Of a stretch of 64,000 nucleotides of DNA, positions 7,918-48,228 are shown in pieces. The stretch spans positions 1,403,130 through 1,467,129 of the forward strand of contig NC_015562.1 in assembly GCF_000214415.1 (NCBI RefSeq), in the 5' to 3' direction. The translations under genes and the position numbers were made by a program. Under the pieces are notes generated by a model, which worked only from the letters and a program-made list of their open reading frames with translations, was not told where the DNA came from and searched no databases. Positions within the stretch are counted from its first letter, which is position 1. Each line of letters opens with the position of its first letter. This DNA comes from Methanotorris igneus Kol 5. Lineage in GTDB: Archaea; AGJL01; Methanococci; Methanococcales; Methanococcaceae.

Positions 7918-8016
7918 TTTATCAATTGGCGATATAAGACCAATATGAGAAATAACAAACCATATTAAACTTAAATTCAAAATAGTAATTTAGAAAGTCA
8001 AAATAAACGTGTTAAG

Positions 8017-32831: not shown

Positions 32832-33578
32832 ATGGTGAATAATATTAAAGAAGAAATTAGAGCATACTGGGACTTTAGGAGTGATTCCTATGACAATTCT
32901 CCTGGCCATTCTGGTTTTGTAGATATTTGGAAAACTGTTTTATCTGAAATTTTTAAAAGGAAAATGAAGATCCTCGATGTTGGGTGTGGGACGGGTTTTT
33001 TATCTTTAATTTTGGCTGAGTTAGGGCATGAGGTTGTTGGAATTGATTTGTCTGAAGGAATGTTAAATAAAGCGAGAGAGAAAGCAAAGAATTTGGGATT
33101 GGATATCGAGTTTATGGTAGGAGATGCAGAAAACCTGCCCTTTGAAGATAATACCTTTGATGCTGTTGTTAATAGGCACCTGTTATGGACACTTCCAAAT
33201 CCAGATAAGGCAATTATGGAATGGGCAAGGGTTGTAAAAAGAGGTGGTAAAGTTGTTGTCATAGATGGAAAATGGCGTAAAAATTCCTTCAATGAGTCAT
33301 TAAGGACTATTTTTAGATATTTGGCAGTAGCGATCTATGAAAAAAGAAACCCCTTCCAAAATATGGGCTATAAAGAAGAAGTGGCTAAAATGCTGCCATT
33401 CAATGGAGGAACGGATGCTGAAAATATAGTCAAACTATTTAAAAATGCAAATTTGGATGAAATAAAGGTTAATGATTTAAGTTGGATTAAAGAAACCCAG
33501 AAGAAGAATTTGCCATTGTTATATAGATTAGCATGGGGAAACACCCATTATTATCTCGTTGAGGGTTTTAAAAAATAA
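32832..33578 (+). CDS. SAM-dependent methyltransferase, transporter-linked copy 1
   Basis: This class I methyltransferase of 248 residues resembles the UbiE/type 11 group. It has motif I ILDVGCGTGFLSL, the acidic VVGIDLSEGM, the GDAENLPFEDNTFD motif and a motif-IV-like NRHLLWTLPNPDKA. The ATG at 32832 follows GTGATAAA; a much longer upstream reading frame has no ribosome site. A 213-base stretch (32953-33165) is almost identical in DNA to the second methyltransferase gene at 42692-42904, while the flanks differ. It lies directly upstream of the first ABC importer, so it may methylate the transported compound or a derivative; the substrate is unknown. Confidence 0.85.
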   Translation: MVNNIKEEIRAYWDFRSDSYDNSPGHSGFVDIWKTVLSEIFKRKMKILDVGCGTGFLSLILAELGHEVVGIDLSEGMLNKAREKAKNLGLDIEFMVGDAENLPFEDNTFDAVVNRHLLWTLPNPDKAIMEWARVVKRGGKVVVIDGKWRKNSFNESLRTIFRYLAVAIYEKRNPFQNMGYKEEVAKMLPFNGGTDAENIVKLFKNANLDEIKVNDLSWIKETQKKNLPLLYRLAWGNTHYYLVEGFKK

Positions 33579-33604
33579 AAAATAAAGATAAAACAAAAAT
33601 CCCT

Positions 33605-33640
33605 GCCGATGAGGTCTTGTCAATTTTTGATGACCGAGGC
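33605..33640 (+). ncRNA. Kink-turn hairpin in the leader of the first importer operon
   Basis: The transcript can fold as GCC (33605-33607), a three-base loop GAU, tandem GA (33611-33612), GGUC (33613-33616), a 15-base apical loop region, GACC (33632-33635), GA (33636-33637) and GGC (33638-33640). This is exactly the kink-turn arrangement of C-stem, NNN, sheared G.A/A.G pairs and NC-stem. It ends 28 bases before the start codon of the substrate-binding protein. Kink-turns bind the archaeal protein L7Ae, so a regulatory leader is plausible, but no experiment is implied. Confidence 0.55.
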
Positions 33641-33668
33641 GTGTATATATAAGATCTGAGGTGATTAC

Positions 33669-35285
33669 ATGAAAAAATTGGTGGTTATATTTTCTACTGC
33701 CATATTACTTATAGCAAGTTGTGTCATGATAGCAGGCTGTGTAGGTGAAAGTTCAACATCTAAAGCACCAGTAAATACTCAGGCACAAACTAACACAAAT
33801 GAGAAATCCACCACCACTACTGAGCCACAATATAAAGATACTTTTGTCTTAGGATATGGAAAAGATCCAAGGCTAAAAGGAGGGCCATGGGGAATTGGTT
33901 TTTTCCCAAAGACTCATGTGCTTGAGAGATTGGTTGAATATGATATAAAAAATGATGATGTTATTCCTTCCTTAGCAGAAAGTTGGGAGATAAAAGATGG
34001 AGGAAAAACCATAATCTTCCATTTAAAGAAAGGGATAAAGTTCTCTGATGGTACTGATTTCAATGCATATGCTGTTAAATTCACAATAGATAGAATGATT
34101 GCAAGAGGGCACTCTTTAGCTCCAAAAGGAGCCGATGTTATTGATAACTATACAGTGGCTATTCACTTTGATAAACCAGGATTCTTTAACCTTGTAAAGA
34201 TGGCAGAATTCCACTTGGGTATTATGTCTCCAACATCAGTTAAACCTGTTGGAGATCCAAATGGAACTTTAGTTAAGCCTATTGGAACTGGACCATTTAA
34301 AGTTGTTGATTATAAAGAGGATCAATATGCAACATTTGAGCCAAACATGTATTGGTATAAAGCAAGAGACACAACTCCTAAGTTTAAAAAGTTCATTCTG
34401 AAAGTTATACCTGATGAGAATACAAGAATTATGGCTTTGAGAAGTGGAGAAGTTGATGCTATCTCAGACTATGTGCATGGAGGGGCTGCATATACACCAA
34501 GAAACCAGTTAAGTGTATTGGAGAAAGAAGGATTTAAAGTATTTAAGGGAAATATTCCTCTAACATGGGTTATTGCATTCAACTATAAGAAAGCACCATT
34601 CAATGATTCAGAGTTAAGAAAGGTTGTTAGTTTGGCAATAAATAGAGATGAAATTGTGAAGATATTTGACAGACAAGTTAGGCCAGCGTGGAATGGAATG
34701 TTCCCACCAGAAGCTCCAGGGATGAAAGAAGCTGGAATCAAATATGAATACAATCCAGAGAAAGCTAAGGAAATATTAAAGAAAAAAGGATTATTAGGAT
34801 TAAAGGTTAGAATCTTAGTTAATAAAAACCAGGAAGATCAAATACTTGTAGCTCAGTTAATACAACAGCAGTTAAAGAAAGCAGGATTTGACCCAGTATT
34901 GGATATAGTTGAGAGTGGGGTTTATCAGAAAAAGAGAGATGCCGGAGATTATGATATGAGGTTGTATTACATTGGAGGAACAGATAGAAGATTTTACTTA
35001 AGGTTATACTGGAGATTCTATCCAGGAGGAAAATGGGATGCATATGAAAGTGAGAGAGTCTGTAGTTTATGTAAAGATATATTAGAAAATCCTGAAAACT
35101 TTGACAAAGAGAAAAGAAAACAGAAATTAATAGAATTCTATAAAGCTTTATATGATGAGATGGGAGTTGTTCCATTATACCATGATGTAATGACAGTTGT
35201 AGCAAGTCCAAATGTAGATGTAGATAAAGCCCACTTGTTCAGATTTGGTGAGCCAGTATTCTACTATGTTGGGGTTAGAAAATAA
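33669..35285 (+). CDS. ABC importer substrate-binding lipoprotein (SBP_bac_5 family), copy 1
   Basis: This 538-residue extracellular binding protein belongs to the dipeptide/oligopeptide/nickel family (DppA/OppA/NikA). The signal peptide ends with the lipobox IAGC (residues 22-25) and is followed by a Ser/Thr/Gln linker. Family motifs include LVEYDIKNDDVIPSLAESWEI, FHLKKGIKFSDGTDFNAYAVKF, GTGPFKVVDY and VRPAWNGMFPPEAPG. The ATG follows GAGGTGATTAC. It heads the operon with two permeases and two ATPases. The ligand (peptide, opine-type metallophore or nickel complex) cannot be deduced. The neighbouring nitrogenase-like genes make a metal complex or a reductase substrate attractive. Confidence 0.9.
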   Translation: MKKLVVIFSTAILLIASCVMIAGCVGESSTSKAPVNTQAQTNTNEKSTTTTEPQYKDTFVLGYGKDPRLKGGPWGIGFFPKTHVLERLVEYDIKNDDVIPSLAESWEIKDGGKTIIFHLKKGIKFSDGTDFNAYAVKFTIDRMIARGHSLAPKGADVIDNYTVAIHFDKPGFFNLVKMAEFHLGIMSPTSVKPVGDPNGTLVKPIGTGPFKVVDYKEDQYATFEPNMYWYKARDTTPKFKKFILKVIPDENTRIMALRSGEVDAISDYVHGGAAYTPRNQLSVLEKEGFKVFKGNIPLTWVIAFNYKKAPFNDSELRKVVSLAINRDEIVKIFDRQVRPAWNGMFPPEAPGMKEAGIKYEYNPEKAKEILKKKGLLGLKVRILVNKNQEDQILVAQLIQQQLKKAGFDPVLDIVESGVYQKKRDAGDYDMRLYYIGGTDRRFYLRLYWRFYPGGKWDAYESERVCSLCKDILENPENFDKEKRKQKLIEFYKALYDEMGVVPLYHDVMTVVASPNVDVDKAHLFRFGEPVFYYVGVRK

Positions 35286-35310
35286 CCCTTTTTAATTTTT
35301 TGGTGAAATC

Positions 35311-36246
35311 ATGATCAGATATCTATCAAAAAGGATTTTACATGCAATAATAACTATTTTAGGAATTTCATTAATCTCTTTTTCTTTACTTTATATATTC
35401 CCTGGAGATCCTGTGGAGTTGGTAATAAGAGTAAATACTGGAATGGAGCCAACACCAGAGATGATAGAGAAATATAAACATGAATTTGGTTTGGATAAAC
35501 CAATCTATATTCAATACATTAACTGGCTTTCACATGCTATCAGAGGAGATTTTGGAACCTCTTGGAGCACAGGAGAGCCAGTTATGAAAGTTATATTAGA
35601 TAGATTACCAGCCTCTATGCAGTTATTCTTTCCAACATTCATTTTATCTATAACTTTTGCTATTGTTCTTGGCATCCTATCGGCAATTTATAAAGATAGA
35701 TTTGTTGATAATTTTTGCAGGATAATCTCAATTATTGGGATAAGTATCCCACACTTTTGGTCAGGATTAATACTCATTTGGATCTTTGCAGTTTGTTTAA
35801 AAATACTCCCAGCATTTGGTTATGGAACTTTGAAGCATATGATTCTCCCAGTTTTAACATGGACTTTATCTTTTATGGCTATTAAAACAAGGTTTGTCAG
35901 ATCTACTTTATTGGAAGTAATGGGTGAAGATTATATAACAACTGCAAGGGCTAAAGGTTTGTCAGATAAGGATGTTGTTATAAAACATGCATTTAGGAAT
36001 GCATTAATTCCAATAATTACATATTTCTCTTTGAGTATTAGCCATCTTATTATAGGGGCTGTTGTTATAGAGGCATTATTTGCCTGGCCTGGTTTAGGAT
36101 CATTACTTGTAAAATCTGTGTTTGAAAGAGACTTTCCCGTTGTTCAGGCTTTAGTGTTTATCAGTGGAGTTTTAATTGTAACTGTCAATTTAGTTGTTGA
36201 TATCCTCTATGCCATTATTGATCCAAGGATAAGGTATGAGGGATAA
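35311..36246 (+). CDS. ABC importer permease, DppB-like, copy 1
   Basis: This is the first membrane subunit of the Dpp/Opp/Nik-type importer, 311 residues with about six helices. The N-terminus MIRYLSKRILHAIITILGISL is typical of DppB. The coupling EAA motif reads TTARAKGLSDKDVVIKHAFRNALIPI (about residues 210-235), and the C-terminus ends DILYAIIDPRIRYEG. The ATG follows GGTGAAATC and starts 25 bases after the binding-protein gene. The second permease follows after two bases. Confidence 0.92.
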   Translation: MIRYLSKRILHAIITILGISLISFSLLYIFPGDPVELVIRVNTGMEPTPEMIEKYKHEFGLDKPIYIQYINWLSHAIRGDFGTSWSTGEPVMKVILDRLPASMQLFFPTFILSITFAIVLGILSAIYKDRFVDNFCRIISIIGISIPHFWSGLILIWIFAVCLKILPAFGYGTLKHMILPVLTWTLSFMAIKTRFVRSTLLEVMGEDYITTARAKGLSDKDVVIKHAFRNALIPIITYFSLSISHLIIGAVVIEALFAWPGLGSLLVKSVFERDFPVVQALVFISGVLIVTVNLVVDILYAIIDPRIRYEG

Positions 36247-36248
36247 TT

Positions 36249-37088
36249 ATGATCTTCAAAAACAAAAAATTCTTTTTTGGATTTTTAATTATATTTTCTA
36301 TGATTATTTTAGGAATCTTAGCCCCAGTTATAGCCGAAGATCCTTACAAAACAGACATGCTTAAAAGATTGTCTCCACCATCCTTAGAGCATCCTTTTGG
36401 AACAGATCAGCTTGGAAGGGACATATTTTCAAGGGTTATTTATGGAGCAAGGGTAACTTTACTAGTTTCATTTGCTGTATCTTTACTCTCTCTAACCATA
36501 GGTAGCCTAATTGGAGCTTTAAGTGGATACTTTGGTGGAGTTATAGATGACATACTTAGCAGGATCACTGATATCTTCTTATCAATCCCTGAAATTGTGT
36601 TAAACATAGCTATGGTTGGAGTCTTGTCAGTATCTTTGAACCTAAGTTCATCAATATTTATTGTGATCTTAGCCATTGTAATTACAAATTGGGTTACATA
36701 TGCAAGGATTACAAGGGGTTTAGTTTTATCCTTAAAAGAGAGCGACTTTGTTCTTTTAGCAAAATCTTCTGGGGCAAATGATCTCTATATTTTATTGAAA
36801 CATATCTTGCCAAATGCTTTATTACCAATTATAGTTTTAGTTACCTTGAATATTGGAAATGTTATCATGACAATATCAACCTTAGGATTCTTAGGTCTTG
36901 GAATTCAGCCACCAACACCTGAATGGGGGGCTATGCTAAACTCAGGAAAAAATTACATAATGACTTCTCCCTGGGTTGTAGTATTTCCTGGATTGGCTAT
37001 AATGCTTGCAATCCTTGGATTTAATTTGATGGGCGATTGTCTGAGAGATATATTCGAACCTAAATCAAGGAGGTCTGTTTATGGGTAA
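36249..37088 (+). CDS. ABC importer permease, DppC-like, copy 1
   Basis: This is the second membrane subunit, 279 residues. It has the DppC signatures LSPPSLEHPFGTDQLGRDIFSRVIYGARVTL (about residues 40-70), the EAA loop FVLLAKSSGANDLYILLKHILPNALLPI and GFLGLGIQPPTPEWGAML. The gene overlaps the ATP-binding subunit by 8 bases, whose AAGGAGG site lies inside its end. It is part of a complete five-gene transporter. Confidence 0.92.
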   Translation: MIFKNKKFFFGFLIIFSMIILGILAPVIAEDPYKTDMLKRLSPPSLEHPFGTDQLGRDIFSRVIYGARVTLLVSFAVSLLSLTIGSLIGALSGYFGGVIDDILSRITDIFLSIPEIVLNIAMVGVLSVSLNLSSSIFIVILAIVITNWVTYARITRGLVLSLKESDFVLLAKSSGANDLYILLKHILPNALLPIIVLVTLNIGNVIMTISTLGFLGLGIQPPTPEWGAMLNSGKNYIMTSPWVVVFPGLAIMLAILGFNLMGDCLRDIFEPKSRRSVYG

Positions 37089-38031
37089 TCTTTTAGTTGT
37101 TAATGATTTGCACGTTGATTTTTTGCTTGGGGATATTAAAGTAAAAGCAGTTAATGGTGTAAATCTTGAAATAAAAGAAGGGGAAACACTATGCCTTATC
37201 GGAGAAAGTGGAAGTGGGAAATCAGTTTTAGGTCTATCGATATTGAAATTGTTACCAAGTAATGTGAATATTAGCGGTAGTATATTATTTAATAATAAAG
37301 ATTTATTGAAATTGCCTGAAAAAGAATTAAGAAAAATTAGGGGAAAGGAAATAGCATGGGTTCCACAGAGTCCATCGACATCTTTAAATCCAGTATTAAA
37401 AGTGGGCTATCAAGTTGCAGAGCCTATGATGTTGCATCTTAATATGGATAAAAAAAGTGCATGGAGTAAGGCAGTTAATTTGTTGAACTTTTTTGGAATA
37501 TATCCAGCAGATAAACGAGCAGAGGAATATCCACATCAGTTTAGTGGAGGAATGAGACAGAGAGCTCTGGTGGCAATGGGGACATCAACAAAACCAAAAC
37601 TCATCATTGCAGATGAACCAACAAAAGGTGTGGATTTAATAAAAAAAGTAAATGTGGTTAAACTATTTGAGCAAATCAAAAGGAATAACGATAAGTTATC
37701 TTTGCTGTTAATCACTCATGATATTCCCTTTGCAAAAAAACTTGCCGATAGGGTTGGAGTTATGTACTGTGGTCAAGTGGTGGAAGTCAGCAATGCCGAA
37801 ACTTTCTTTGATGAGCCTTTACATCCATACTCTAAGGCATTGATTAATGCCCTCCCTTCAAGAGGATTAAAACCTATTAAAGGTTCTCCTCCAAGCATGG
37901 TGAATCCACCAAAGGGATGCAAATTTCATCCAAGATGTGAGTTTGCAACAGAAAAATGTCGTAATGAGGAGCCACCATTTATTGAGTATAACGGCAATTT
38001 TGTGAGGTGTCACTTATATGATAAAAGGTAA
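37081..38031 (+). CDS. ABC importer ATP-binding protein, DppD/OppD-like
   Basis: This 316-residue ATPase has Walker A GESGSGKS (about residues 46-53), signature motif FSGGMRQRA, Walker B LIIADEPTKGVD and the oligopeptide-transporter C-terminal extension GCKFHPRCEFATEKC, whose cysteines are usual in this family. The signature has no LSGG but FSGG, and Walker B has DEPTKGVD instead of DEPTTALD. The 59 bases covering Walker A (37166-37224) are identical to those of the next gene. It overlaps that gene by 14 bases. Confidence 0.92.
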   Translation: MGNLLVVNDLHVDFLLGDIKVKAVNGVNLEIKEGETLCLIGESGSGKSVLGLSILKLLPSNVNISGSILFNNKDLLKLPEKELRKIRGKEIAWVPQSPSTSLNPVLKVGYQVAEPMMLHLNMDKKSAWSKAVNLLNFFGIYPADKRAEEYPHQFSGGMRQRALVAMGTSTKPKLIIADEPTKGVDLIKKVNVVKLFEQIKRNNDKLSLLLITHDIPFAKKLADRVGVMYCGQVVEVSNAETFFDEPLHPYSKALINALPSRGLKPIKGSPPSMVNPPKGCKFHPRCEFATEKCRNEEPPFIEYNGNFVRCHLYDKR

Positions 38032-38953
38032 AAACTTAACAAAAGTTTTTGAATCTGGAATATTTTCAAAACGCAAATTTATTGCGGTGGATAATGTTGA
38101 TATTGAAATAAAAGAAGGGGAAACACTATGCCTTATCGGAGAAAGTGGAAGTGGGAAATCAACACTTGGCAAAATGCTTTTAAATTTAATTAAGCCCACC
38201 AATGGCGAGGTTATATTTAACAATTACAATATTACAAAAATGAAACAAACTGAGCTCCGAAAAATCAGAAGGTATATGCAGTTAATTCCTCAGTATCCAG
38301 ATAGTGCATTAAATCCCAGATGGACAATAAAAAATAGCATTCTTGAACCTTTAAGGATTCACAAACTTATCGATAAAAATAACGAGCAGGAAAAACTGGA
38401 AGAACTTATAGAGACTGTCGGATTAAAGAAGGAGCACTTAGACAGATATCCACATGAGTTAAGCGGAGGGGAATTGCAAAGGGCAGTTATAGCAAGGGCA
38501 ATATCATTGAAACCAAAGTTTATCGTATGTGATGAACCAACATCGATGTTGGATGTTTCGGTTCAGGCGTCAATTATTAATTTGCTACTAAATTTACAAA
38601 AAAAGTATAATATATCATATTTGTTTATTACTCATGATTTGGAAATAGCAAATATCGTTGGACAGAGATTTGCTGTGATGTATGGCGGACAGATACTTGA
38701 AGAAGGAAATAAAATCATGGATAAACCACTTCATCCATATACTGAACTACTTGTTAAATCAACTACTATGGATATTGAAAATATCAATGAATTACTGGAT
38801 AAAACTGAAACTGAAATTAAAAAATCCAATAACAATAGAGGATGCAAATATTATCATCTCTGCCCATATCATGACGAAAAATGTTTAAAAGAAAATCCGC
38901 CAGTTGTTGAAGTCGATAAAAATAGAAAGGTTAGATGTTTCAGATATGTCTAA
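38018..38953 (+). CDS. ABC importer ATP-binding protein, DppF/OppF-like
   Basis: This second ATPase of the transporter is 311 residues, with Walker A GESGSGKST, signature LSGGELQRAVIARAI, Walker B FIVCDEPTSMLDVS and the cysteine-rich tail GCKYYHLCPYHDEKCLKENPP. The two ATPases form the usual heterodimer. They are the only ATPases in the cassette, so they may also power the second set of permeases downstream. A T-rich run follows the stop. Confidence 0.92.
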   Translation: MIKGKNLTKVFESGIFSKRKFIAVDNVDIEIKEGETLCLIGESGSGKSTLGKMLLNLIKPTNGEVIFNNYNITKMKQTELRKIRRYMQLIPQYPDSALNPRWTIKNSILEPLRIHKLIDKNNEQEKLEELIETVGLKKEHLDRYPHELSGGELQRAVIARAISLKPKFIVCDEPTSMLDVSVQASIINLLLNLQKKYNISYLFITHDLEIANIVGQRFAVMYGGQILEEGNKIMDKPLHPYTELLVKSTTMDIENINELLDKTETEIKKSNNNRGCKYYHLCPYHDEKCLKENPPVVEVDKNRKVRCFRYV

Positions 38954-38958
38954 ATTAA

Positions 38959-38970
38959 TTTTTTATTTTT
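38959..38970 (+). terminator. Oligo-T terminator after the first importer operon
   Basis: The run TTTTTTATTTTT begins a few bases after the stop codon of the second ATPase gene. Archaeal transcription commonly ends at such T tracts. No hairpin is needed or seen. Confidence 0.4.
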
Positions 38971-39044
38971 AACTAATAATATTTATATATAAATTTTGAA
39001 TATTTTATAATAACTTTATTGTCATTTAGAAACATATAGTAACA

Positions 39045-39055
39045 TTTATATATAG
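39045..39055 (+). promoter_or_regulatory. Probable promoter of the second transporter operon
   Basis: A TATA-like TTTATATATAG lies about 70 bases upstream of the second binding-protein gene, in a 164-base gap with no gene. Transcription would start near 39078, leaving a leader of about 40 bases with the GGTGAT ribosome site at its end. Confidence 0.45.
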
Positions 39056-39117
39056 TTTATAATACATTATGGGTTACATATTTTAAGAAATTTAAGAAAT
39101 TTTAAAAAGGTGATACT

Positions 39118-40710
39118 TTGAATATGAAGAGAATTGGAATTCTCCTATTATGTGGACTGCTTATATTCACAGTAGCGATGTGTGGATGCACTACAGCAAC
39201 AGAAACCACTACACAACCACAAACTAATGCAAATACTAATACAAATACCCAAATACAGAATCAAATAAAACCGCAGGTATTGACATTAGGAGCTCAGAAC
39301 GATTTCAAAGATTCGTTTGAAAGTAAAAGTTTAGTATTTGACACTTTGATGAAATACAATGATGACTTCTCCCCAAAACCAAATATTATAGAGAGTTGGG
39401 AAGTTTCAAAAGATAAGAAAACCTATATTCTCCATATTAGGAAAGGAGTTTATTTCACAAATGGAAAAGAGGCTAATGCCGATGTCGTTAAATTCTCACT
39501 TGAGTATTGGGCACCATACAGATACTGTAGATACATAAAATATCTTGATAGCATAGAAAAAATTGATAACTATACTTTAAAACTCAAATTTAAGGAACCT
39601 TATGCACCATTGTTAGAAGAACTTCCAAGAATATACTTAACTTTGCCAGAGACTGTAGATGATAAAGGAAATATCATAAAATGGATTGGAACTGGGCCAT
39701 TCATATTAAAAGAATATCAAAAAGGCCAAAAAGCTGTTTTAGTAAGAAATGATAACTATTGGAACAAAGAAAAGATACCTAAAATTGAAAAAGTCATTTG
39801 GAAAGTGATCCCTGACGAGAATGCAAGAATCATGGCTCTAAAGAGTGGGGCTGTAGATGCAATTGGAGTGACAGAGCATTATTTATCAGTTCCTGCTCAG
39901 AGAATTCCGGAATTACAAAAAACGCCAGGATTAAAAGTAATGATTGCAGATAAGGGAACTATTGAAACATATTGTTTCAATTACAAAAAAGGACCGCTAA
40001 CTGATAAAAGGGTTAGGCAGGCAATTGCCTATGCAATTGATAGAGAAGGAATATCTAAAAATTTATTCAATGGAATTCCACAACCAACAGGACATTTACT
40101 ATTGCCAGAATTTAAGAACGGGCCAAAAAATGTTAAACCATACTACTACAACCCAGAAAAAGCTAAGCAACTCCTTGCAGAGGCAGGTTATAAAGACACA
40201 AATGGAGACGGCATATTAGAAGATAAAGATGGAAAGCCATTAAGATTAACATTAATAACAGGAAATACACAAATGGAAAGAGACACAGCGGTGTATATAC
40301 AAAAAAACTTAAGAGACATTGGTATTGACCTAAATATTGTATGTTTGGAAAAGAAAGCAAGAAAAGAAAGAGCCAAAAAAGGAGATTGGGACATCTGTAG
40401 AACACATCCTTGGGTTGCTCCACCTGTTAGATACCTAAAATGGAGATGCATGGATGATGGATACGACAGTTTTGGGATTAAATTTGGAGTAAATGACAGA
40501 GTCAAGGAATTAATTAATATAATATACACTGGAAGTGATGAAGAAATTAAAAATGCATGGAATGAACTTTGGAAAATAGAATACGACTTTTGTCCAGCCA
40601 CTGGGCTTTATGTTAGGCCAAGGGTGTTTGTCTTTAAAGACAATATAAAAGGATTTAGATTTGATCCAGATGTTGGATGTATTGATCTAAGTAATGTCAC
40701 AATAGAATAA
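39118..40710 (+). CDS. ABC importer substrate-binding lipoprotein (SBP_bac_5 family), copy 2
   Basis: This is a second Dpp/Opp/Nik-type binding protein, 530 residues. The signal peptide ends in AMCGC (about residues 20-24) and is followed by a Thr/Gln/Asn linker. Family segments include YILHIRKGVYFTNGKEANADVVKFSLEY, WIGTGPFILKEYQKGQKAVLVRNDNYW, RQAIAYAIDREGISKNLFNGIP and YNPEKAKQLLAEAGY. It shares fold but little sequence with copy 1, so the ligands may differ. The start is TTG three bases after GGTGAT; an in-frame ATG at 39124 is also possible. It is followed by two permeases but no ATPases. Confidence 0.9.
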   Translation: MNMKRIGILLLCGLLIFTVAMCGCTTATETTTQPQTNANTNTNTQIQNQIKPQVLTLGAQNDFKDSFESKSLVFDTLMKYNDDFSPKPNIIESWEVSKDKKTYILHIRKGVYFTNGKEANADVVKFSLEYWAPYRYCRYIKYLDSIEKIDNYTLKLKFKEPYAPLLEELPRIYLTLPETVDDKGNIIKWIGTGPFILKEYQKGQKAVLVRNDNYWNKEKIPKIEKVIWKVIPDENARIMALKSGAVDAIGVTEHYLSVPAQRIPELQKTPGLKVMIADKGTIETYCFNYKKGPLTDKRVRQAIAYAIDREGISKNLFNGIPQPTGHLLLPEFKNGPKNVKPYYYNPEKAKQLLAEAGYKDTNGDGILEDKDGKPLRLTLITGNTQMERDTAVYIQKNLRDIGIDLNIVCLEKKARKERAKKGDWDICRTHPWVAPPVRYLKWRCMDDGYDSFGIKFGVNDRVKELINIIYTGSDEEIKNAWNELWKIEYDFCPATGLYVRPRVFVFKDNIKGFRFDPDVGCIDLSNVTIE

Positions 40711-40747
40711 TATTATTTATTCTTTTATCTTTTTTAGGGTGTGGTTT

Positions 40748-41683
40748 ATGAAAGGCTTTATAATAAAGAGATTATTTTTAATCATCCCTACGGCGATAGC
40801 AGTTTCATTGATTTCATTTTCTTTGCTTTATTTCTCCCCTGGAAATGCTGCAGAGATTATATTAGAGCAAAAATCTCCAGACGCAGGGCCAAATAGTGAG
40901 CTTGTTAAAGAATATGAAAAAAAGCTTGGATTGGACAAACCATTTTATGAACTCTACTTAATTTGGCTTAGTAAAGTATTAAGAGGAGATTTTGGAACAT
41001 CATTACAAAACGGAGAACCTGTTATTGATGAAATAATGGCAAGATTACCATATACACTCATGCTAATGTTAGGGGCTACTGTTGTTTATTTAATATTGGG
41101 AATTTTGATGGGTGTGTTATCTGCAGTTTATAAAGACAGTTTTATTGATAATATTGTTAGAGCTTATGCATCAATAAACATGTCTATACCAAACTTTTGG
41201 TTGGCATTATTGCTAATATGGATCTTTTCTGTAAAACTTAGAATCATTGATACTTTTGGATATAATGGGGTATATAGTTTAATCCTCCCTTCATTGGCAT
41301 TAGGATTAGGAATGGCTGGATCATTGGCGAGGGTTTTGAGAGTCTCTATCCTTGAAGTGTTTAACAGTGATTATGTATTAACAGCAAGAGCCAAGGGGCT
41401 CTCAGAACGAATCATTATTCTTAAACATGTATTAAAGAATGCTTTTCTCCCAGTTATAACTTTGATAGGTATGAAAACCACGTATTTACTTGGTGGAAGT
41501 GTTATAGTTGAGAGTATTTTTGGATGGCCTGGGATAGGAAGTTATCTCATTGAAGCCATAAATGCAAAAGATTTTCCTGCAGTTTCAGGTACTGTCTTCA
41601 TAATTGGAATTTTGGTTGTTATTGCAAATTTAATAGTTGATATATCCTATACAATCTTAGATCCAAGGATTAGGTATGGTTAA
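40748..41683 (+). CDS. ABC importer permease, DppB-like, copy 2
   Basis: This 311-residue DppB-type permease has the N-terminal helix MKGFIIKRLFLIIPTAIAV, the EAA motif TARAKGLSERIIILKHVLKNAFLPVI and the end ILDPRIRYG. The ATG at 40748 follows AGGGTGTGGTTT. It pairs with the next permease to form a second channel that lacks its own ATP-binding genes and probably uses the upstream pair. Confidence 0.9.
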   Translation: MKGFIIKRLFLIIPTAIAVSLISFSLLYFSPGNAAEIILEQKSPDAGPNSELVKEYEKKLGLDKPFYELYLIWLSKVLRGDFGTSLQNGEPVIDEIMARLPYTLMLMLGATVVYLILGILMGVLSAVYKDSFIDNIVRAYASINMSIPNFWLALLLIWIFSVKLRIIDTFGYNGVYSLILPSLALGLGMAGSLARVLRVSILEVFNSDYVLTARAKGLSERIIILKHVLKNAFLPVITLIGMKTTYLLGGSVIVESIFGWPGIGSYLIEAINAKDFPAVSGTVFIIGILVVIANLIVDISYTILDPRIRYG

Positions 41684-41706
41684 GAGCTCATGTTAAGGGG
41701 TCTAAT

Positions 41707-42513
41707 ATGAATAAAAGGTTTATTTTATCACTATCTATGGTTGTTTTAATATTCCTTGTCTCAATATTGTCTCCATATATTTTTAAAGATGTGAATAAAA
41801 TAGACTTCACTGAAAAACTTCAAAAGCCAAGTTTAGAACATCCATTTGGGACGGATAATTTTGGTAGGGATTTATTTAAAAGAACATTATGTGGTTTGAG
41901 GATTTCTCTTATTCTTGCTGTTTGTATTGAGGCAATATCATTAATTATTGGAATATCTCTTGGATTGATAGCAGGGTACTATGGTGGAATTGTTGATGAA
42001 ATAATTAGTAGAATTATAGATATAGTAATAGCATTTCCAAACATCATTTTTGCCTTGGCTATAGTCTCAATATTTGGGCAGAGTATGGTTGTGTTGGTTT
42101 TGGCTTTATCTTTATTAGGTTGGGCAAGTTATGCAAGAATCATAAGGGGAGAGGTTTTATCTTTAAAAGAGAGGGATTTTGTTACCCTAGCAAGAACCTC
42201 TGGAGGAAGTAATTTCTATATATTAATTAAGCACATCCTCCCAAATGCAATAATTCCAATAATCCCTCTTGCAACTCTAATGATTGGACATTCTGTATTA
42301 TCTATAGCAGGCTTAAGTTTTCTTGGATTTGGAGTTCAGCCTCCAACTCCTGAATTAGGGCTTATGTTGAAAGAGTCTGTAACTTACATTGATACAGCCC
42401 CTTGGATGATGATCTTTCCAGGTTTGGTGTTATCGTTCTGTGTATTGATGTTTAATACTATTGGTGATGCATTAAGAGACATTTTAGACCCAAGAGAGAA
42501 TAGAATTGAATAA
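41707..42513 (+). CDS. ABC importer permease, DppC-like, copy 2
   Basis: This 268-residue DppC-type permease has KLQKPSLEHPFGTDNFGRDLFKRTLCGLRISL, the EAA loop FVTLARTSGGSNFYILIKHILPNAIIPII and FLGFGVQPPTPELGLMLKE. The ATG follows AAGGGGTCTAAT. The second methyltransferase gene begins 52 bases downstream with its own GGTGAT site. Confidence 0.9.
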   Translation: MNKRFILSLSMVVLIFLVSILSPYIFKDVNKIDFTEKLQKPSLEHPFGTDNFGRDLFKRTLCGLRISLILAVCIEAISLIIGISLGLIAGYYGGIVDEIISRIIDIVIAFPNIIFALAIVSIFGQSMVVLVLALSLLGWASYARIIRGEVLSLKERDFVTLARTSGGSNFYILIKHILPNAIIPIIPLATLMIGHSVLSIAGLSFLGFGVQPPTPELGLMLKESVTYIDTAPWMMIFPGLVLSFCVLMFNTIGDALRDILDPRENRIE

Positions 42514-42564
42514 AAAATAATAAAAATTGAAGTTATTATAATACTAAAATGGAAAGGTGATAAA

Positions 42565-43200
42565 ATGAATATTAAGGAGTATATAAAATCAAGATGGAAC
42601 GAACATGCAAAGAACTATGACAAAATTCCAGCCCACGGAGTGAATTCTGAAAAGGATAAGAAAGTTGTTAAAAATGCTTTAAAGGAGATACTTAAAAGGA
42701 AAATGAAGATCCTCGATGTTGGGTGTGGGACAGGTTTTTTATCTTTAATCTTGGCTGAGTTAGGGCATGAGGTTGTTGGAATTGATTTGTCTGAAGGAAT
42801 GTTAAATAAAGCGAGAGAGAAAGCAAAGAATTTGGGATTGGATATCGAGTTTATGGTAGGGGATGCAGAAAACCTACCCTTTGAAGATAATACCTTTGAT
42901 GCTATTGTGGAGAGGCATATATTATGGACGCTCCCAAATCCTAAGAAGGCAATTAAAGAATGGATGAGGGTTTTAAAAGATGGAGGAAAAATAATATTAA
43001 TTGAAAGTGAGAGTAGAGGGGTTAATGTTGCCAAGCATCATTATGATGATGATAAGGTTATAAAAAATTTGCCTTTTTCAAATGGGTTAGATTTGGAAAG
43101 ATTCAAAGAAATAGCAAATGAATGTAATTTGACATTTAAAGTAGAAACTCTAGACTGTGAGAAGATAAATTTAATGATTGTTTGTGAAAAAACCTGTTAA
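42565..43200 (+). CDS. SAM-dependent methyltransferase, transporter-linked copy 2
   Basis: This is a 211-residue class I methyltransferase starting MNIKEYIKSRWNEHAKNYDK. Its motif I (ILDVGCGTGFLSL) and the following motifs are the same as in the gene at 32832. The central 213 bases (42692-42904) differ from that copy at only about four positions, three of them silent third bases, whereas N- and C-terminal parts are unrelated in DNA. This pattern indicates recent recombination between the two. The gene lies between the second permease and the nitrogenase-like genes, suggesting that methylation belongs to the same pathway. Substrate unknown. Confidence 0.85.
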   Translation: MNIKEYIKSRWNEHAKNYDKIPAHGVNSEKDKKVVKNALKEILKRKMKILDVGCGTGFLSLILAELGHEVVGIDLSEGMLNKAREKAKNLGLDIEFMVGDAENLPFEDNTFDAIVERHILWTLPNPKKAIKEWMRVLKDGGKIILIESESRGVNVAKHHYDDDKVIKNLPFSNGLDLERFKEIANECNLTFKVETLDCEKINLMIVCEKTC

Positions 43201-43337
43201 TTTTCTTTATTTTATTGAAGTGAAGTATAATTAGGAAACTCTGAATATATTAATAATTTAGTAATAAACAATAAATATTATGTAATAATTTATGTTAAAT
43301 TACATTAAAAATGTTAATAAGATAATTGGTGATTTAA

Positions 43338-44552
43338 GTGGAACCTTTGCAGGGTTGTAGAATGATTGGTGCCGTTAGGGCATTTAATGGAATACTTGAT
43401 GGATATATAATACTTCACTCACCACCGGGATGTCACTCTGGTGTGATGATGTTGGAAGTTTTACAGGATAACAGTGATTGGAGAGTTGCAGTTTCTGGAA
43501 TGCATCAAAGGGATTTGGTTTATGGTGCAGAGAACAAGTGTTTATTGGCAATAAAAAAGGTATATGAGACTATTAAACCAAATTTTATTGTTGTTATGGA
43601 TTGCTGTTCATCTGGTATTTTAGGGGAAGATTTAGAAAGTGTTGTGAATATGGCAAAGAGGGAGATTGGCGAAGATATGGATATAATCTATTTTAGTGGA
43701 GCAGGATACCACAGTTTGGCGTATTTGGGTTATGAAGAAGCATTAAAATCATTAGTTCAATTTATGGAACAAAAAGAAACCATTCCAAACTCAATAAATT
43801 TAATTGGCATAAAAATAGATGATTTCAAAGCTAAGGAAGATATTGAAGAAATAAAAAGAATTTGTAGCAATGCAGGAGTTAATATAAATTCTATTTTAAC
43901 CTGCGACACTTTCGATTCAATAAAGAATGCTCCAAATGCTGAATTAAATGTCGTCTTTGGAGATGGAATTAAATTGGCAGAATTAATGAAAAAGAAATTT
44001 GACATCCCATATGTTGTTGTTGATTATCCATATGGCTTAAATGGAACCTTGGAGTTTTTAAACTCGCTAAATGAGTATGTTAATGTTGATTTTAAGTTTG
44101 TTGAAGAGGAAAAGAAGAGGATAATCAAAACTGTTGAAAAGGTTCAGTTCTATTTAAAAGGATTCTACGGCATGAACTCCGCAGTAGTTGGAGATTATAA
44201 GGCATTTGGATTTGCCAAATTTTTGTCTGATGAGATTGGGTTTGACATTGATACCTTGGGAATTTCAAAATTTTACAATATCGACAGCAAAATAAAGGAA
44301 ATTAAGCATATCGTGGAAAATGTTGTTATAGACGACAGAAAGGAACTGGAAGATAAAATTATGGAAAATGATATTGAGATACTGTTTGGTTCCAGTTATG
44401 AAAAGAAAATAGCACAAAATAAAAACATACCATTAATAAGGTTCTCCTATCCAGTGGTTGATGAAATATCTTTAAGTAATACTCCACTTGCTGGATTTAG
44501 GGGTGTTTCTGTAATTATTGAAAGAATTATAAATGAAATTATAAAAGCATAA
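43338..44552 (+). CDS. Nitrogenase-like component 1 subunit, NifK-like
   Basis: This 404-residue protein belongs to the nitrogenase component 1 superfamily (NifD/K/E/N, BchN/B, CfbD). Cys7 (EPLQGCRM), Cys32 (ILHSPPGCHSG) and Cys89/Cys90 (VVMDCCSSGILGED) occupy the positions of the P-cluster ligands, and the C-terminal GFRGVSVIIERI resembles the end of NifK/NifN. It is much shorter than true NifK (about 510-520 residues) and lacks its N-terminal extension. The start is GTG four bases after GGTGAT. It overlaps or abuts the NifD-like gene. The presence of both a K-like and a D-like subunit distinguishes it from homodimeric CfbD. The reaction is unknown. Confidence 0.82.
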   Translation: MEPLQGCRMIGAVRAFNGILDGYIILHSPPGCHSGVMMLEVLQDNSDWRVAVSGMHQRDLVYGAENKCLLAIKKVYETIKPNFIVVMDCCSSGILGEDLESVVNMAKREIGEDMDIIYFSGAGYHSLAYLGYEEALKSLVQFMEQKETIPNSINLIGIKIDDFKAKEDIEEIKRICSNAGVNINSILTCDTFDSIKNAPNAELNVVFGDGIKLAELMKKKFDIPYVVVDYPYGLNGTLEFLNSLNEYVNVDFKFVEEEKKRIIKTVEKVQFYLKGFYGMNSAVVGDYKAFGFAKFLSDEIGFDIDTLGISKFYNIDSKIKEIKHIVENVVIDDRKELEDKIMENDIEILFGSSYEKKIAQNKNIPLIRFSYPVVDEISLSNTPLAGFRGVSVIIERIINEIIKA

Positions 44553-44563
44553 TGGGTGGCGAT

Positions 44564-45967
44564 ATGCAGTATAAAGAACAGAAAATAAGGATTTGTTCAA
44601 ACCTTCCACTGCATAGGCAAAGCGGTATTCCTGGAAAGGTTTGTGGGGCTTTAAGGATTGCAAATCAAATAAAAGGATGTATCCCAATACTCCATTCACC
44701 AGTAGGCTGTGCATTTCAAAGGAAGATAAACACTTTTGCACCTTATGAGATAACCTATAATTTACCTTGCACAAATTTAACAGAGGTTGATACAGTTTAT
44801 GGCGGTCATGAGAAATTGGTAGAAAAGATTTTAGAGGTTAATAAAAAATACCATCCTGAACTCATATTAATTATCTCAACATGTGCCCCAGATTTGATTG
44901 GAGAGGACTACGATATTACATTGGATGAAGTCAGAGATATGATTGATGCAAAAATTATATATGACACAGGAAATGCAAAGAGAGCTCCCGTTGGCATGCA
45001 AAGTGTATTATATTCATTAGCCACTCAGGTAATGGAGGAACAGGATAAAATTGAAAAAAGTCTGAATATCTGCAAACTTTCATACCATAGAACAGATTTA
45101 GTTGATGAATTTGTAGATATTTTGAAAGAGATGGGAGCTCATGTCAATGGAGTTTATTTCAACAACAACACCGTTGAAGATATAAAAAACATTCCAAGGG
45201 CTGAGCTCAATTTGGTAGATTTTCCAGCAGATTGGGTTTTGTATGTTGAGAAGAAATTTGGGACAAAATATCTTGTACCTCCCCGGCTGAAAATAGAGGA
45301 CTCTCTAACAACCTTAAATGGATTTGCCAAATATTTGTATGCTATTGCTGATATCTTAGATTTAGATACTAATGTGATTGAAAAAAGAAAAAAGGAAGCA
45401 GATGAAAAACTTGAAAAATATAGGAATAAATTAAAAGGTAAAAAAATAGCAAGTGGATTTTCAGTTCATGGGGGAGCAATGCAAACATTGATTGAAGATG
45501 TAGGAATGGAATGCCCTGTTTTAATATTAAAAACTAGAAGAATGAGTTTAATGATGAAAGAAAATGCTATTAAGCATATATCCAATTCAATGATAAGATT
45601 TATTGAAAATCATCAAGGATATGCCCCAGAAGTATTGATAAATCCAACTACTGAGGAAGAAATAAAGGCAATGAAGGAACATGGTATTGAATTGTGCGTA
45701 GGTGGAATGGAAAATAACATGTTTGAATATTTAAGAAACGGCATAAAATTATTCGATATGAGGAGGATGATGCAGATATCAAAAATGGGTTTTAGCAATT
45801 CTATAAATATAGCAAGGGAGGCCTATAAAATCATCTCCAAAGAACCAAAATCACACTTACTATTGGGAAATATAGATTATTCAATGAAATATCCAAGTTT
45901 ATCAAACTACTGGGCAAACATTGTTGATATATTCCAAACATGCTGGTATTGTGATTATAAGGACTGA
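44564..45967 (+). CDS. Nitrogenase-like component 1 subunit, NifD-like
   Basis: This protein of about 467 residues, numbered from the ATG behind GGGTGGCGAT, has Cys27 (GIPGKVCGALRIA), Cys49 (LHSPVGCAFQRK) and Cys107 (IISTCAPDLIGEDYD). The NifD-type LPCTNLTEVDTVYGGHEKL comes between the second and third. These match the three P-cluster cysteines of NifD. In the second half FSVHGGAMQTLIEDVGMECPVLILKTRR and GIELCVGGMENNMFEYLRNGIKLFDMRR replace the FeMo-cofactor region. The exact Cys/His cofactor ligands of NifD are not evident. Together with the K-like subunit it should form a heterotetramer that reduces an unidentified substrate or carries an unidentified cofactor. Confidence 0.82.
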   Translation: MQYKEQKIRICSNLPLHRQSGIPGKVCGALRIANQIKGCIPILHSPVGCAFQRKINTFAPYEITYNLPCTNLTEVDTVYGGHEKLVEKILEVNKKYHPELILIISTCAPDLIGEDYDITLDEVRDMIDAKIIYDTGNAKRAPVGMQSVLYSLATQVMEEQDKIEKSLNICKLSYHRTDLVDEFVDILKEMGAHVNGVYFNNNTVEDIKNIPRAELNLVDFPADWVLYVEKKFGTKYLVPPRLKIEDSLTTLNGFAKYLYAIADILDLDTNVIEKRKKEADEKLEKYRNKLKGKKIASGFSVHGGAMQTLIEDVGMECPVLILKTRRMSLMMKENAIKHISNSMIRFIENHQGYAPEVLINPTTEEEIKAMKEHGIELCVGGMENNMFEYLRNGIKLFDMRRMMQISKMGFSNSINIAREAYKIISKEPKSHLLLGNIDYSMKYPSLSNYWANIVDIFQTCWYCDYKD

Positions 45968-46006
45968 TCAAAATTATTTTATAAAAATAAGAATAAGGGT
46001 GGTATT

Positions 46007-46879
46007 TTGAAACAGATCGCTTTTTATGGGAAAGGGGGAATTGGTAAATCGACGACTGTCTGTAATATAGCGGCGGCATTGGCAGATGAGGGGAAAAGGG
46101 TTATGGTTGTTGGTTGTGATCCGAAGCATGATTGTACATCGAATTTAAGGGGAGGAGAAGAGATTCCAACGGTTTTAGATACGTTGAGGGAGAAGGGTAT
46201 GGAGAAACTCAGTTTGGAGGATGCAATAGAGGGAAAAAAGATTGAAATGGATGAGATTGTTTATAAGGGATATAAGGGTATTTATTGTATTGAGGCAGGG
46301 GGTCCTAAACCGGGTTATGGGTGTGCTGGGAGGGGTGTTATTGTTGCTATTGATTTGTTAAAGAAGATGAATGTTTTTGAAGAGTTGGGAGTTGATGTTG
46401 TTTTATATGATGTCCTTGGGGATGTTGTTTGCGGTGGATTCGCGATGCCTTTGAGGATGGGGTTGGCTGAGCAAATTTATATTGTTACTTCTTCCGATTA
46501 CATGGCTATGTATGCTGCAAACAATATTTGCAGAGGGATGAAAGAATTTGCAAAAAGAGGTGGAAGTAGGTTAGGTGGTTTAATTTATAACGTTAGGGGT
46601 TCTTTGGATGCGGAGGATATTGTTACTGAGTTTGCTAAAAAATTGGGAACTGAGATTATTGGTAAAATTCCAAATTCTTTGTTAATTGCTGAGGCGGAGA
46701 TTGAGGGTAAGACGGTTATTGAATATGCCCCAGACAGTGAGATTGCATCAATTTATAGAGAACTTGCTAAGAAGATTTACAAAAATAAAAATGGAGTTAT
46801 CCCAAATCCATTGGAAAACAAGGAATTAATGCAAATTGGATTGGCTATTAAGGAAAGGATTAAAAAAATGAGGAACTAA
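46007..46879 (+). CDS. NifH-like iron protein (nitrogenase reductase family)
   Basis: This 290-residue ATP-dependent electron donor has the P-loop GKGGIGKST (residues 8-16), [10 protein letters not shown], the 4Fe-4S cysteines Cys106 (GYGCAGRG) and Cys142 (VVCGGFAMP), and [12 protein letters not shown] switch residues. It is closest in style to NifH/NflH. The start is TTG after GGTGGTATT, 40 bases after the NifD-like gene, so the three genes form a K-D-H operon. It would deliver electrons to the upstream component 1. It could be a CfbC-type protein for F430 synthesis, but the paired K and D genes argue for another reaction. Confidence 0.9.
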
Positions 46880-46975
46880 TTTAGTGTTAATTTATTCGCA
46901 AATTAATCTTATTTACAACATTTTTATTTCATTGTTATTTATTTATATTTACTAAAATGCATAAGGGCGATACCA

Positions 46976-47902
46976 TTGGATGTATTATCCTATTTAACTC
47001 AAACAATCCTTTTATCATCAGTTGGGATTATTATTGCAGGAATCATTGAAGAAACAAATCTATTGTCCATAATTAAGAAAATAACAAAACCATTGTGTTT
47101 AATCTCAAATTTACCTGAAGAATGTGTAGTGGCGTTATTAGGGAATTTTATAAATCCAACAGTTGGAAAATCCATGCTTGCCAAATTCTACAAAGAAAAT
47201 AAAATAAATAGTAGGGAAACTATAGTTACAACAATAATTAGTCCATTACCAATAATTTTAGGGGAAAGCATATTTAGAGTGCAACTACCCCTTGCAATTG
47301 TTCTCCTTGGATATAAATTAGGGACAATATACGTGCTTTTTAATATGCTTTCTGGATTTTTAATGGCTTTAATTGGAATTATATATTCGAATATCGCTTT
47401 TGAAAGAAAATTTTTAAACATCGATACCAACAACAATGAAAAAATTATATTTAATAGGGCTGTTATTACAAAAGGCATAAAAAAATCTATAAAACTTCTA
47501 AAAAAAGTAATTCCTATGATTGTAATATTTACATTACTAATACATTGCCTAATGACTTTTGGTTTAATAGATATTATAAAAGAGATATTCACACCAATAT
47601 TTAGCATATTGGATTTACCGGGAGAAGCAGTAATGGTTTTAGTTGCAAATTTTGCCCATTTCTCCGCAGGATATGCTACTGTGAGTATTTTGATAAAGAA
47701 TGGTGTGTTAAATGAGAAGCAGGCACTACTAACGCTGTTAATTGGAAATATAATTGGAATAACCATGATATATTTAAAGCACTCTATAGGGACTTATGTT
47801 GCATTATTTGGTAGATTTGGCTTAAAATTAGCCATGATTAATTATACAATATCGATAATTATAAAAATTTTTTTAATAATGCTCATAATGTTAATGTTCT
47901 AA
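46976..47902 (+). CDS. Nucleoside-recognition (gate) domain membrane protein
   Basis: This protein of 308 residues has about eight hydrophobic segments and two gate-domain halves (LGNFINPTVGKSMLAKFYKENKI at about residue 60; LVANFAHFSAGYATVSILIKNGVL at about 220). Proteins of this pfam07670 type include nucleoside and spore-maturation transport proteins, but archaeal members are uncharacterised. The start is TTG after GGGCGATACCA. It is downstream of the nitrogenase-like genes on the same strand, separated by 96 bases, and a functional link is uncertain. Confidence 0.8.
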   Translation: MDVLSYLTQTILLSSVGIIIAGIIEETNLLSIIKKITKPLCLISNLPEECVVALLGNFINPTVGKSMLAKFYKENKINSRETIVTTIISPLPIILGESIFRVQLPLAIVLLGYKLGTIYVLFNMLSGFLMALIGIIYSNIAFERKFLNIDTNNNEKIIFNRAVITKGIKKSIKLLKKVIPMIVIFTLLIHCLMTFGLIDIIKEIFTPIFSILDLPGEAVMVLVANFAHFSAGYATVSILIKNGVLNEKQALLTLLIGNIIGITMIYLKHSIGTYVALFGRFGLKLAMINYTISIIIKIFLIMLIMLMF

Positions 47903-48107: not shown

Positions 48108-48228
48108 ATACAATACAACAGAGGAACATGAACACCACTTATAACGCAAACGATTATACAATATCCAAATACATAGTCATCCTCGATTTTTGTAATGGAT
48201 TATGTCATATAAAAACTTGAGGGAGAAA

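Follow-up and report, generated by a model that had tools for sequence, protein, structure and literature searches.

A conserved nitrogenase-like gene unit in Methanotorris igneus lacks FeMo-cofactor ligands and is linked to an importer, a methyltransferase and a Gate protein

The DNA analysed here, hereafter the window, comprises 64,000 nucleotides of the thermophilic, methane-producing archaeon Methanotorris igneus Kol 5 (contig NC_015562.1, positions 1,403,130 to 1,467,129, from a genome of one contig of 1,854,197 bp), and encodes a nitrogenase-like system of two component-1 subunits (K, NifK-like, and D, NifD-like) with a NifH-like protein (H), flanked by a methyltransferase (MT2) and a Gate-domain membrane protein (Gate). 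We found that MT2-K-D-H-Gate, together with a solute-binding protein (SBP2) and two permeases upstream (importer 2), is a conserved unit, that K and D fill five of the six P-cluster cysteine positions of nitrogenase and have lost the ligands of the iron-molybdenum cofactor (FeMo-co), and that both subunits fall outside every reference clade in our trees. We read the unit, at a probability of about 0.42 for the line as a whole, as an ATP-driven reductase line for an imported, methylated metal chelate, probably of the tetrapyrrole type.

An initial annotation of this DNA had listed thirteen genes between 32832 and 46879, all of which are present on the forward strand and in the order given, although it left out a fourteenth, the Gate gene (PF07670) at 46976-47902. 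The run (Table 1) reads: a first methyltransferase (MT1), a complete Nik/Opp-type importer (importer 1), SBP2 with its two permeases, MT2, K, D, H and Gate. K and D overlap by 1 bp, and gaps of 39, 96 and 137 bp separate D from H, H from Gate and MT2 from K, respectively.

Comparison with relatives defined which of these genes belong together; loci (L) and genomes (G) are cited by our own numbers. Orthologues of D occur in 4 of the 36 genomes of the class, with K and H adjoining D in each, and a search at the level of the phylum covered the same 36 genomes only. A methyltransferase of the MT2 family precedes K in all four Methanococcales operons, the window included; Gate follows H directly in three of them (window, L037 and L039), as it does in L075 and L076, and two Gate fragments lie near K-D-H on the other strand in G035. 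Permeases of importer 2 are likewise present in three of the four operons; having no ATPase of its own, this importer presumably borrows one. In G024 (L147:8003-9662) MT2 adjoins Gate with no K-D-H, and in G030 (L148:5287-7099) a 74-residue H fragment lies between MT2 and fragments of Gate, layouts as expected if they were the remains of one operon after loss of its middle.

Importer 1 and MT1 behave differently. Of the 35 other genomes of the class, 3 have an orthologue of its binding protein (SBP1), and the order SBP1, permease B, permease C, ATPases, MT1 recurs in G001 and G035, at a distance from K-D-H or where the genome has none; MT1 is located elsewhere than the importer 1 genes in G013, and an MT1 orthologue directly follows atpF in L149 and L150. 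Because relatives carry importer 1 and MT1 as an operon of their own, we rejected them as part of the K-D-H unit: of the two blocks of importer and methyltransferase in the window, only the second belongs to it.

Neighbouring genes were counted with hidden Markov models built here, on the fetched stretch around each of 72 loci in five groups, the window included, which are listed below in the order Methanococcales, W-type Halobacteriota (the window-type rows from what we take to be the phylum of the Methanosaeta genome G037), clade-A archaea, clade-A Clostridia and clade B. The controls were 18 nif loci, 13 of which come from the class to which the window belongs. The loci were chosen by similarity of K, several genomes gave more than one, and many stretches stop at contig ends. 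An importer permease lies near 39 of the 72 loci (3/4, 7/26, 7/10, 8/10 and 14/22) and near none of the 18 controls, and a methyltransferase of any kind near 26 (4/4, 15/26, 5/10, 0/10 and 2/22) and near one control. Gate was found near 4/4, 3/26, 4/10, 0/10 and 3/22 loci, a count that includes two short open reading frames on the opposite strand in L041, and near 0/18 controls. Methyltransferases of MT2's family sit within several archaeal operons, and a methyltransferase on the same strand within 400 bp of K, D or H was seen at 4/4 Methanococcales and 7/26 W-type Halobacteriota loci, against 0/18 controls. Importers and methyltransferases therefore co-occur with K-D-H genes in relatives, as the initial annotation had proposed; its importer linkage stands for importer 2 and for the recurrence of importers as such, and fails for importer 1 and for importer type, Nik/Opp-type permeases being present at 3/4 Methanococcales and 1/22 clade-B loci and at none in the other three groups. 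These counts bear on the possibility that K-D-H works alone, with importers and methyltransferases as unrelated chance neighbours. The separable importer 1 and MT1, the change of importer type between lineages and G034, where no importer adjoins K-D-H, would fit such a reading, which the control comparisons for permeases and same-strand methyltransferases nonetheless make very unlikely.

Operon layouts elsewhere in the group extend this picture. In clade B, which is wider and mostly of Clostridia, H, a BtuF-C-D importer and a D-K pair share one gene run (e.g. L049 and L084). L142 reads, in transcription order, BtuF-BtuC-ATPase-MT-D-K-H-MT-K-H-D, and L136 BtuF-BtuC-ATPase-MT-PNPOx-D-K-H-D-K-H-H (MT, methyltransferase; both ATPases assigned by eye). 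A clade-A system is followed by a W-type system at no fewer than seven loci (L064, L065, L067, L068, L133, L136 and L127, which a contig end cuts), as if two reductases acted in sequence. On a 6-kb Halobacteriota contig, a W-type K-H pair is accompanied by a binding protein of the Nik/Opp type (168 bits; L139:259-2046). Separately, L054:5974-16256 (Acidaminobacter) is the sole bacterial locus of the set with both BtuF-C-D and Nik/Opp importers beside D-K, and a Clostridiales contig (L098:1939-11682) holds six consecutive component-1 genes of clade-A and nif-like types.

To locate cluster ligands, we aligned 37 D and 38 K sequences and matched both subunits by profile alignment to NifD and NifK of the same genome, with positions numbered as we take them to be in the Azotobacter nitrogenase. 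K keeps three P-cluster-type cysteines (Cys7, Cys32 and Cys90, at beta-70, beta-95 and beta-153) and D keeps two (Cys53 at alpha-88 and Cys111 at alpha-154). The initial statement that all P-cluster cysteines of component 1 are kept is thus correct for five of six positions and incorrect for alpha-62, which is Gly28 in D. A first reading of K made with phmmer, in which Cys32 was beta-70 and beta-95 was missing, was overturned by the profile alignments, which place the missing cysteine at alpha-62 of D. Cys31, three residues past Gly28, is present in 4 of 37 D sequences, all from Methanococcales, and an additional Cys73 is conserved in 34 of 37; the lost alpha-62 ligand may be replaced by Cys73, or in the window by Cys31. 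The replacement of the FeMo-co region noted initially was borne out by the same profile alignments, in which window D has neither the alpha-275 Cys nor the alpha-442 His: none of the 37 D sequences has a Cys in the segment aligned with alpha-275, and the segment aligned with alpha-442 has no His in window D, with a His nearby in several Halobacteriota rows. The pattern varies within the wider group, since archaeal clade-A pairs (L042, L045, L046, L066 and L070) keep alpha-62 and retain only beta-95 in K. The D partners of those K copies that most resemble the window's have Asp at alpha-154 (L137:1754-3259, L138:654-2195, L142:5461-6945 and L144:3798-5294), resembling the Asp ligand of dark-operative protochlorophyllide oxidoreductase (DPOR). 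In H, both cluster cysteines are kept, as claimed, within GYGCAG and DVVCGG, which we take to be the NifH cluster-cysteine motifs, and the protein passes the NifH model TIGR01287 (431.9 bits, cut-off 394.35) as well as PRK13230.

Neither K nor D reaches the cut-off of its best NCBIfam model. This model is BchB for K (162 bits, cut-off 490), and NifE for D (103.4 bits, cut-off 505), and the CfbD model TIGR03282 (cut-off 268) gives 53 and 46 bits, respectively. AlphaFold models of the single chains have a mean predicted local distance difference test (pLDDT) score of 90.8 for K and 82.1 for D. By VIA-align, the predicted K fold is nearest to BchB of DPOR (Z 43.7, root-mean-square deviation 2.5 over 395 residues), with MarK at 40.8; for D, NifEN, Mar and DPOR lie within about two Z units of one another and the first 26 residues are unreliable, so we claim no nearest fold. 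The NifE score bears on another explanation, in which nickel or cobalt would enter through the importers and K-D-H would serve metallocofactor assembly as a NifEN-like scaffold or reducer. Such a role would agree with permease B of importer 1, which passes the cut-off of a nickel-permease model, and with SBP2, whose best NCBIfam model is NikA (250 bits, under the cut-off of 393) and which, among solved chains, is closest to a 'peptide-binding protein' (9pl3) and then to NikA chains. In a single relative, L088, D-K-H is followed by a gene judged NifB-like by eye, and extracts of the work of Dos Santos et al. (PMC3464626) propose a coupling of metal transport to cofactor assembly. We nevertheless consider it quite unlikely: the cofactor Cys is missing from D, as is the His in the window protein, the operon encodes no separate acceptor enzyme, and NifE and NifN references are placed away from the window K/D clade in the trees.

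Phylogenetic placement was examined in a careful K tree of 36 rows, built without CfbD, and in quick K, D and H trees, none of which contains Isr or Anf sequences. The quick K tree omits 26 of 75 K rows (fusions, partial and near-identical rows and nif copies) and the D tree 12 of 59 (L043, L050-L052, L058-L060, one of L067, L078, L095, L097 and L098). Mar references came from plasmid records: D of L124 (Treponema) matches full-length the R. rubrum Mar structure 9FMG (PMC12552129, in part), and the Chlorohelix pair L126 was taken by similarity to L124. In the careful K tree the window falls in a 20-row clade (support 100/99) with Nif, Vnf, Mar and Bch references outside, and groups within it with the second K copies of Halobacteriota genomes (6 rows, 99/97). 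The corresponding clade of the D tree has 27 rows, a Shimodaira-Hasegawa-like approximate likelihood-ratio test (SH-aLRT) support of 99 and none of the CfbD, Nif, Vnf, Mar and Bch references. Window sequences share 37-50% (K) and 30-38% (D) identity with W-type Halobacteriota rows, and window H groups with the same rows (12 rows, SH-aLRT 91). CfbD lies outside the window clade in the quick K and D trees, as a long branch that goes weakly with clade B in the former and joins another long branch in the latter. On the basis of these trees we reject K and D as CfbD, Mar, Bch or Nif paralogues, in agreement with the initial annotation, which had set the system apart from CfbCD and Mar.

The CfbD placement also concerns the possibility of a second F430-type enzyme, a CfbCD paralogue that reduces or tailors F430 or a precursor and is served by nickel import. 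The genome's own CfbD-like gene lies elsewhere, close D orthologues are restricted to the 4 of 36 genomes of the class, and the clade has members in Clostridia, which to our knowledge do not make F430. With CfbCD, the Ni-sirohydrochlorin a,c-diamide reductase, the unit shares a nitrogenase-like make-up, a host that is a methanogen judging by its kin, and a nickel context of nickel-type importers; it differs in having two catalytic subunits, where CfbD is single and homomeric. Although CfbCD is indeed a nitrogenase-like reductase of a nickel tetrapyrrole (PMC11423573, in part), we regard a paralogue of this kind as highly improbable.

In nitrogenase-like enzymes, the H protein is an ATPase that supplies the cluster of the D-K pair with electrons. 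In the reductase line that we propose, the binding-protein-dependent importer would take up an organic metal-binding molecule, and MT2 would methylate this molecule or its product with S-adenosylmethionine (SAM) as donor. H would hydrolyse ATP and deliver single electrons to a D2K2 heterotetramer, where they would travel via an Fe-S cluster at the D-K interface held by the five conserved cysteines, perhaps with Cys31 or Cys73 of D. Because the FeMo-co ligands are absent, the substrate would probably be reduced directly, as in DPOR, in the cavity corresponding to the FeMo-co site of nitrogenase. Our best guess for this substrate is a tetrapyrrole-like ring (a corrinoid, a porphyrin or a metal complex), as in DPOR, chlorophyllide oxidoreductase (COR) and CfbCD, and Gate might move the released metal or product.

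The surroundings of related loci give a weak indication that the substrate is a tetrapyrrole or corrinoid. CobN-like genes lie near 7 of the 72 loci (0/4, 3/26, 3/10, 0/10 and 1/22), a count that includes two short fragments in L071, and near 0/18 nif controls. The Methanococcus-type locus L042, which L043 and L044 resemble, carries two Gate genes, a CobN-like gene, a radical SAM gene, D, K, CbiZ and BtuC, with CbiZ adjoining D-K. L088 belongs to a genome of the Clostridium gallinarum order and has a cobalamin riboswitch (104.5 bits) whose end is about 160 bp upstream of a clade-A D-K-H, with another one (55.9 bits) upstream of its BtuF-C-D importer; the L088 riboswitches map to 12722-12927, 7935-8129 and 18030-18154 (-), a third lying further out. 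In the window's own genome, two stretches (L120, 534000-553999, and L121, 602000-621999) each hold one of its two CobN-like genes: a radical SAM gene and a BtuF-like protein lie close to the first, a ChlI-like AAA gene (by eye) close to the second; the radical SAM gene of L120 is similar to that of L042 (by eye).

Several observations weigh against the proposed line. Its substrate is suggested by the context of relatives only. The two CobN-like genes of the genome are far from the operon, none was found in the fetched window stretch, and we dropped CobN as a specific marker, since 32 of the class's 36 genomes encode CobN-like proteins. A cobalamin riboswitch was found at 1 of 23 bacterial loci scanned (L088) and none in the window, which has no RNA element at gathering scores. 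Outside Methanococcales the importer is nearly always BtuC-type, and those of the window are Nik/Opp-type rather than BtuF-C-D; G034 has K-D-H with no importer beside it; SBP2 is truncated in G023; and no methyltransferase was found near any of the 10 clade-A Clostridia loci. The neighbourhood counts are descriptions and not significance tests, because the loci are related and similarity-chosen, contigs are short and 13 of 18 controls come from the same class. Foldseek E-values for the K model place NifK (1mio_B) just ahead of ChlB, and the likeness of the model to BchB may be an effect of K's short length. Finally, the H tree leans to Mar: MarH (L126) joins a 21-row group of window-type and clade-A H sequences (SH-aLRT 90), outside the window's own 12-row group. 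MarH placement, the Foldseek order and the binding protein of L139 pull, weakly, in opposite directions.

The position of MarH, the nearest reference to the window H group, is one reason to consider that the enzyme instead performs Mar- or Isr-like reductive cleavage of a C-S (or other C-heteroatom) bond in an imported compound, for sulfur or methyl salvage, a chemistry that methyltransferases acting on methyl-sulfur compounds would suit. Among group IV enzymes, those with a known reaction are Mar, Isr and CfbCD according to the extracts available (PMC12552129, PMC11423573), and cleavage of this type is performed by members such as Mar (PMC12552129) and Isr, which is placed next to Mar and Nfa and whose locus has Ssu and Tau importers (PMC11423573). 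However, the Fe8S9C cluster of Mar sits on Cys270, analogous to NifD Cys275 (PMC12552129, in part), and this alpha-275-type ligand is absent from window D; MarD and MarK form a separate clade; and no NifB/MarB-like radical SAM gene lies in 43338-47902. On balance we think this chemistry unlikely for the window enzyme.

The unit can be set beside the other known systems as follows. A component-1 pair with a NifH-like protein, the absence of FeMo-co ligands and a position outside the named D and K clades place it among group IV nitrogenase-like systems, and an ABC importer beside K-D(-H) in relatives makes the wider group importer-linked. Nitrogenases of the Mo, V and Fe types have the alpha-275 Cys, the alpha-442 His and six P-cluster cysteines, of which the window system lacks the first two and has five of the six, and the window K and D lie outside the Nif/Vnf clade. 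DPOR (BchLNB) and COR (BchXYZ) likewise consist of three subunits and use ATP to drive reduction, and their active sites carry no metal cofactor; by VIA-align BchB is the nearest fold to the K model, whereas DPOR and COR are separate in the trees and no BchB, N, Y or Z model was passed, 162 bits being the best score. HmuS, a heme de-chelatase, is a CobN-like protein of an uptake operon, as is found near some relatives of the window operon, and its operon presumably has a BtuC-type importer. In contrast to the line proposed here, it works with NADH and no nitrogenase-like donor (PMC12583661, in part).

As regards novelty, the initial description of an undescribed reductase is too strong, because nitrogenase-like pairs without both FeMo-co ligands, some of them adjoining ABC transporters (in Clostridium and Methanocorpusculum), were reported in 2012 by Dos Santos et al., according to extracts of that paper (PMC3464626). 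Those pairs share with the window system two component-1 subunits and a NifH-like protein, P-cluster-type cysteines, the absence of FeMo-co ligands and ABC transporters; the available extracts mention no methyltransferase, Gate or CobN link, and the window system has lost the alpha-62 Cys and has a Nik/Opp-type importer. A search of the open-access literature found no paper on this operon, nor any report of the link to methyltransferase, Gate and CobN, of tandem systems or of alpha-62 ligand loss.

The distribution of the unit suggests recent transfer of K-D-H between genera: window D is 85% identical to the copy in the same genus and 94% identical to those in two other genera, which are thus closer to it and near-identical to each other. 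Branch lengths show the K-D-H copies of L037 and L039, from these two different genera, to be almost identical. Strong K-profile matches elsewhere were obtained in at least 13/237 and at least 16/225 genomes (E 1e-70) and in at least 10/392 and at least 4/391 (E 1e-75), lower bounds from overlapping search groups in which only the best few candidates were scored per large genome. In G023 (L039:9023-10498) the C-terminal half of SBP2 continues in frame from an N-terminus that looks radical-SAM-like by eye, which makes it probable that this importer is broken.

Within the window, MT1 and MT2 share a 309-bp block (32931-33239 and 42670-42978) and differ at the gene ends, a pattern suggestive of recent gene conversion in their SAM-binding core. 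An aconitase X gene (PF04412, 31297-32520) lies 311 bp upstream of MT1, outside the unit. A downstream cbiF-like gene (48202-48999, TP_methylase) was rejected as a linked tetrapyrrole gene, having no match beside the operon in L037, L039 or L041.

Table 1 Features of the importer-linked nitrogenase-like locus, in window coordinates.
Feature	Coordinates	Strand	Evidence
MT1, class-I SAM methyltransferase	32832..33578	+	Pfam Methyltransf_11 108.7 bits
110-bp block identical to MT2 42751-42860	33012..33121	+	within 309-bp block, 90.3% identity
SBP1, family-5 solute-binding lipoprotein, importer 1	33669..35285	+	PF00496 (SBP_bac_5) 264 bits
Permease B, importer 1	35311..36246	+	PF00528; NCBIfam Opp2B nickel permease 356.5 bits, cut-off 350
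Permease C, importer 1	36249..37088	+	PF00528
ATPase D, importer 1	37081..38031	+	PF00005 + oligo_HPY
ATPase F, importer 1	38018..38953	+	PF00005 + oligo_HPY
SBP2, solute-binding lipoprotein, importer 2	39118..40710	+	PF00496 315 bits
Permease B, importer 2	40739..41683	+	PF00528; retained in G023 and G035
Permease C, importer 2	41707..42513	+	PF00528; retained in G023 and G035
MT2, class-I SAM methyltransferase, core unit	42565..43200	+	Methyltransf_11 109.2 bits
K, NifK-like component-1 subunit	43338..44552	+	NCBIfam scores, cysteine alignment, AlphaFold model
D, NifD-like component-1 subunit	44552..45967	+	NCBIfam scores, cysteine alignment, AlphaFold model
H, NifH-like ATP-dependent electron donor	46007..46879	+	NCBIfam PRK13230 536.7 bits, cut-off 350
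Gate-domain membrane protein, last gene of conserved unit	46976..47902	+	PF07670 63 bits

Taken more widely, anaerobic archaea and some Clostridia might possess a ring-processing pathway built like bacteriochlorophyll synthesis, made up of an importer, a CobN/ChlH-like chelatase, a SAM methyltransferase and a nitrogenase-like reductase, or two of them in succession, with a P-cluster-like site of alternative cysteines in the window-type enzyme, that would salvage metal from an imported metallo-tetrapyrrole or make a new cofactor; we regard this joint reading as doubtful. How Archaea use homologues of HmuS, CobN and ChlH is stated to be unclear in extracts of a recent paper (PMC12583661), and since CobN-like genes repeatedly adjoin archaeal members of the wider group, a joint function can be put to the test. 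Few nitrogenase-like enzymes have assigned reactions, and this clade, since it travels with importers and methyltransferases, shows where to seek the substrate. If the proposed line is correct, a nitrogenase-like reductase would be added to metal or tetrapyrrole acquisition.

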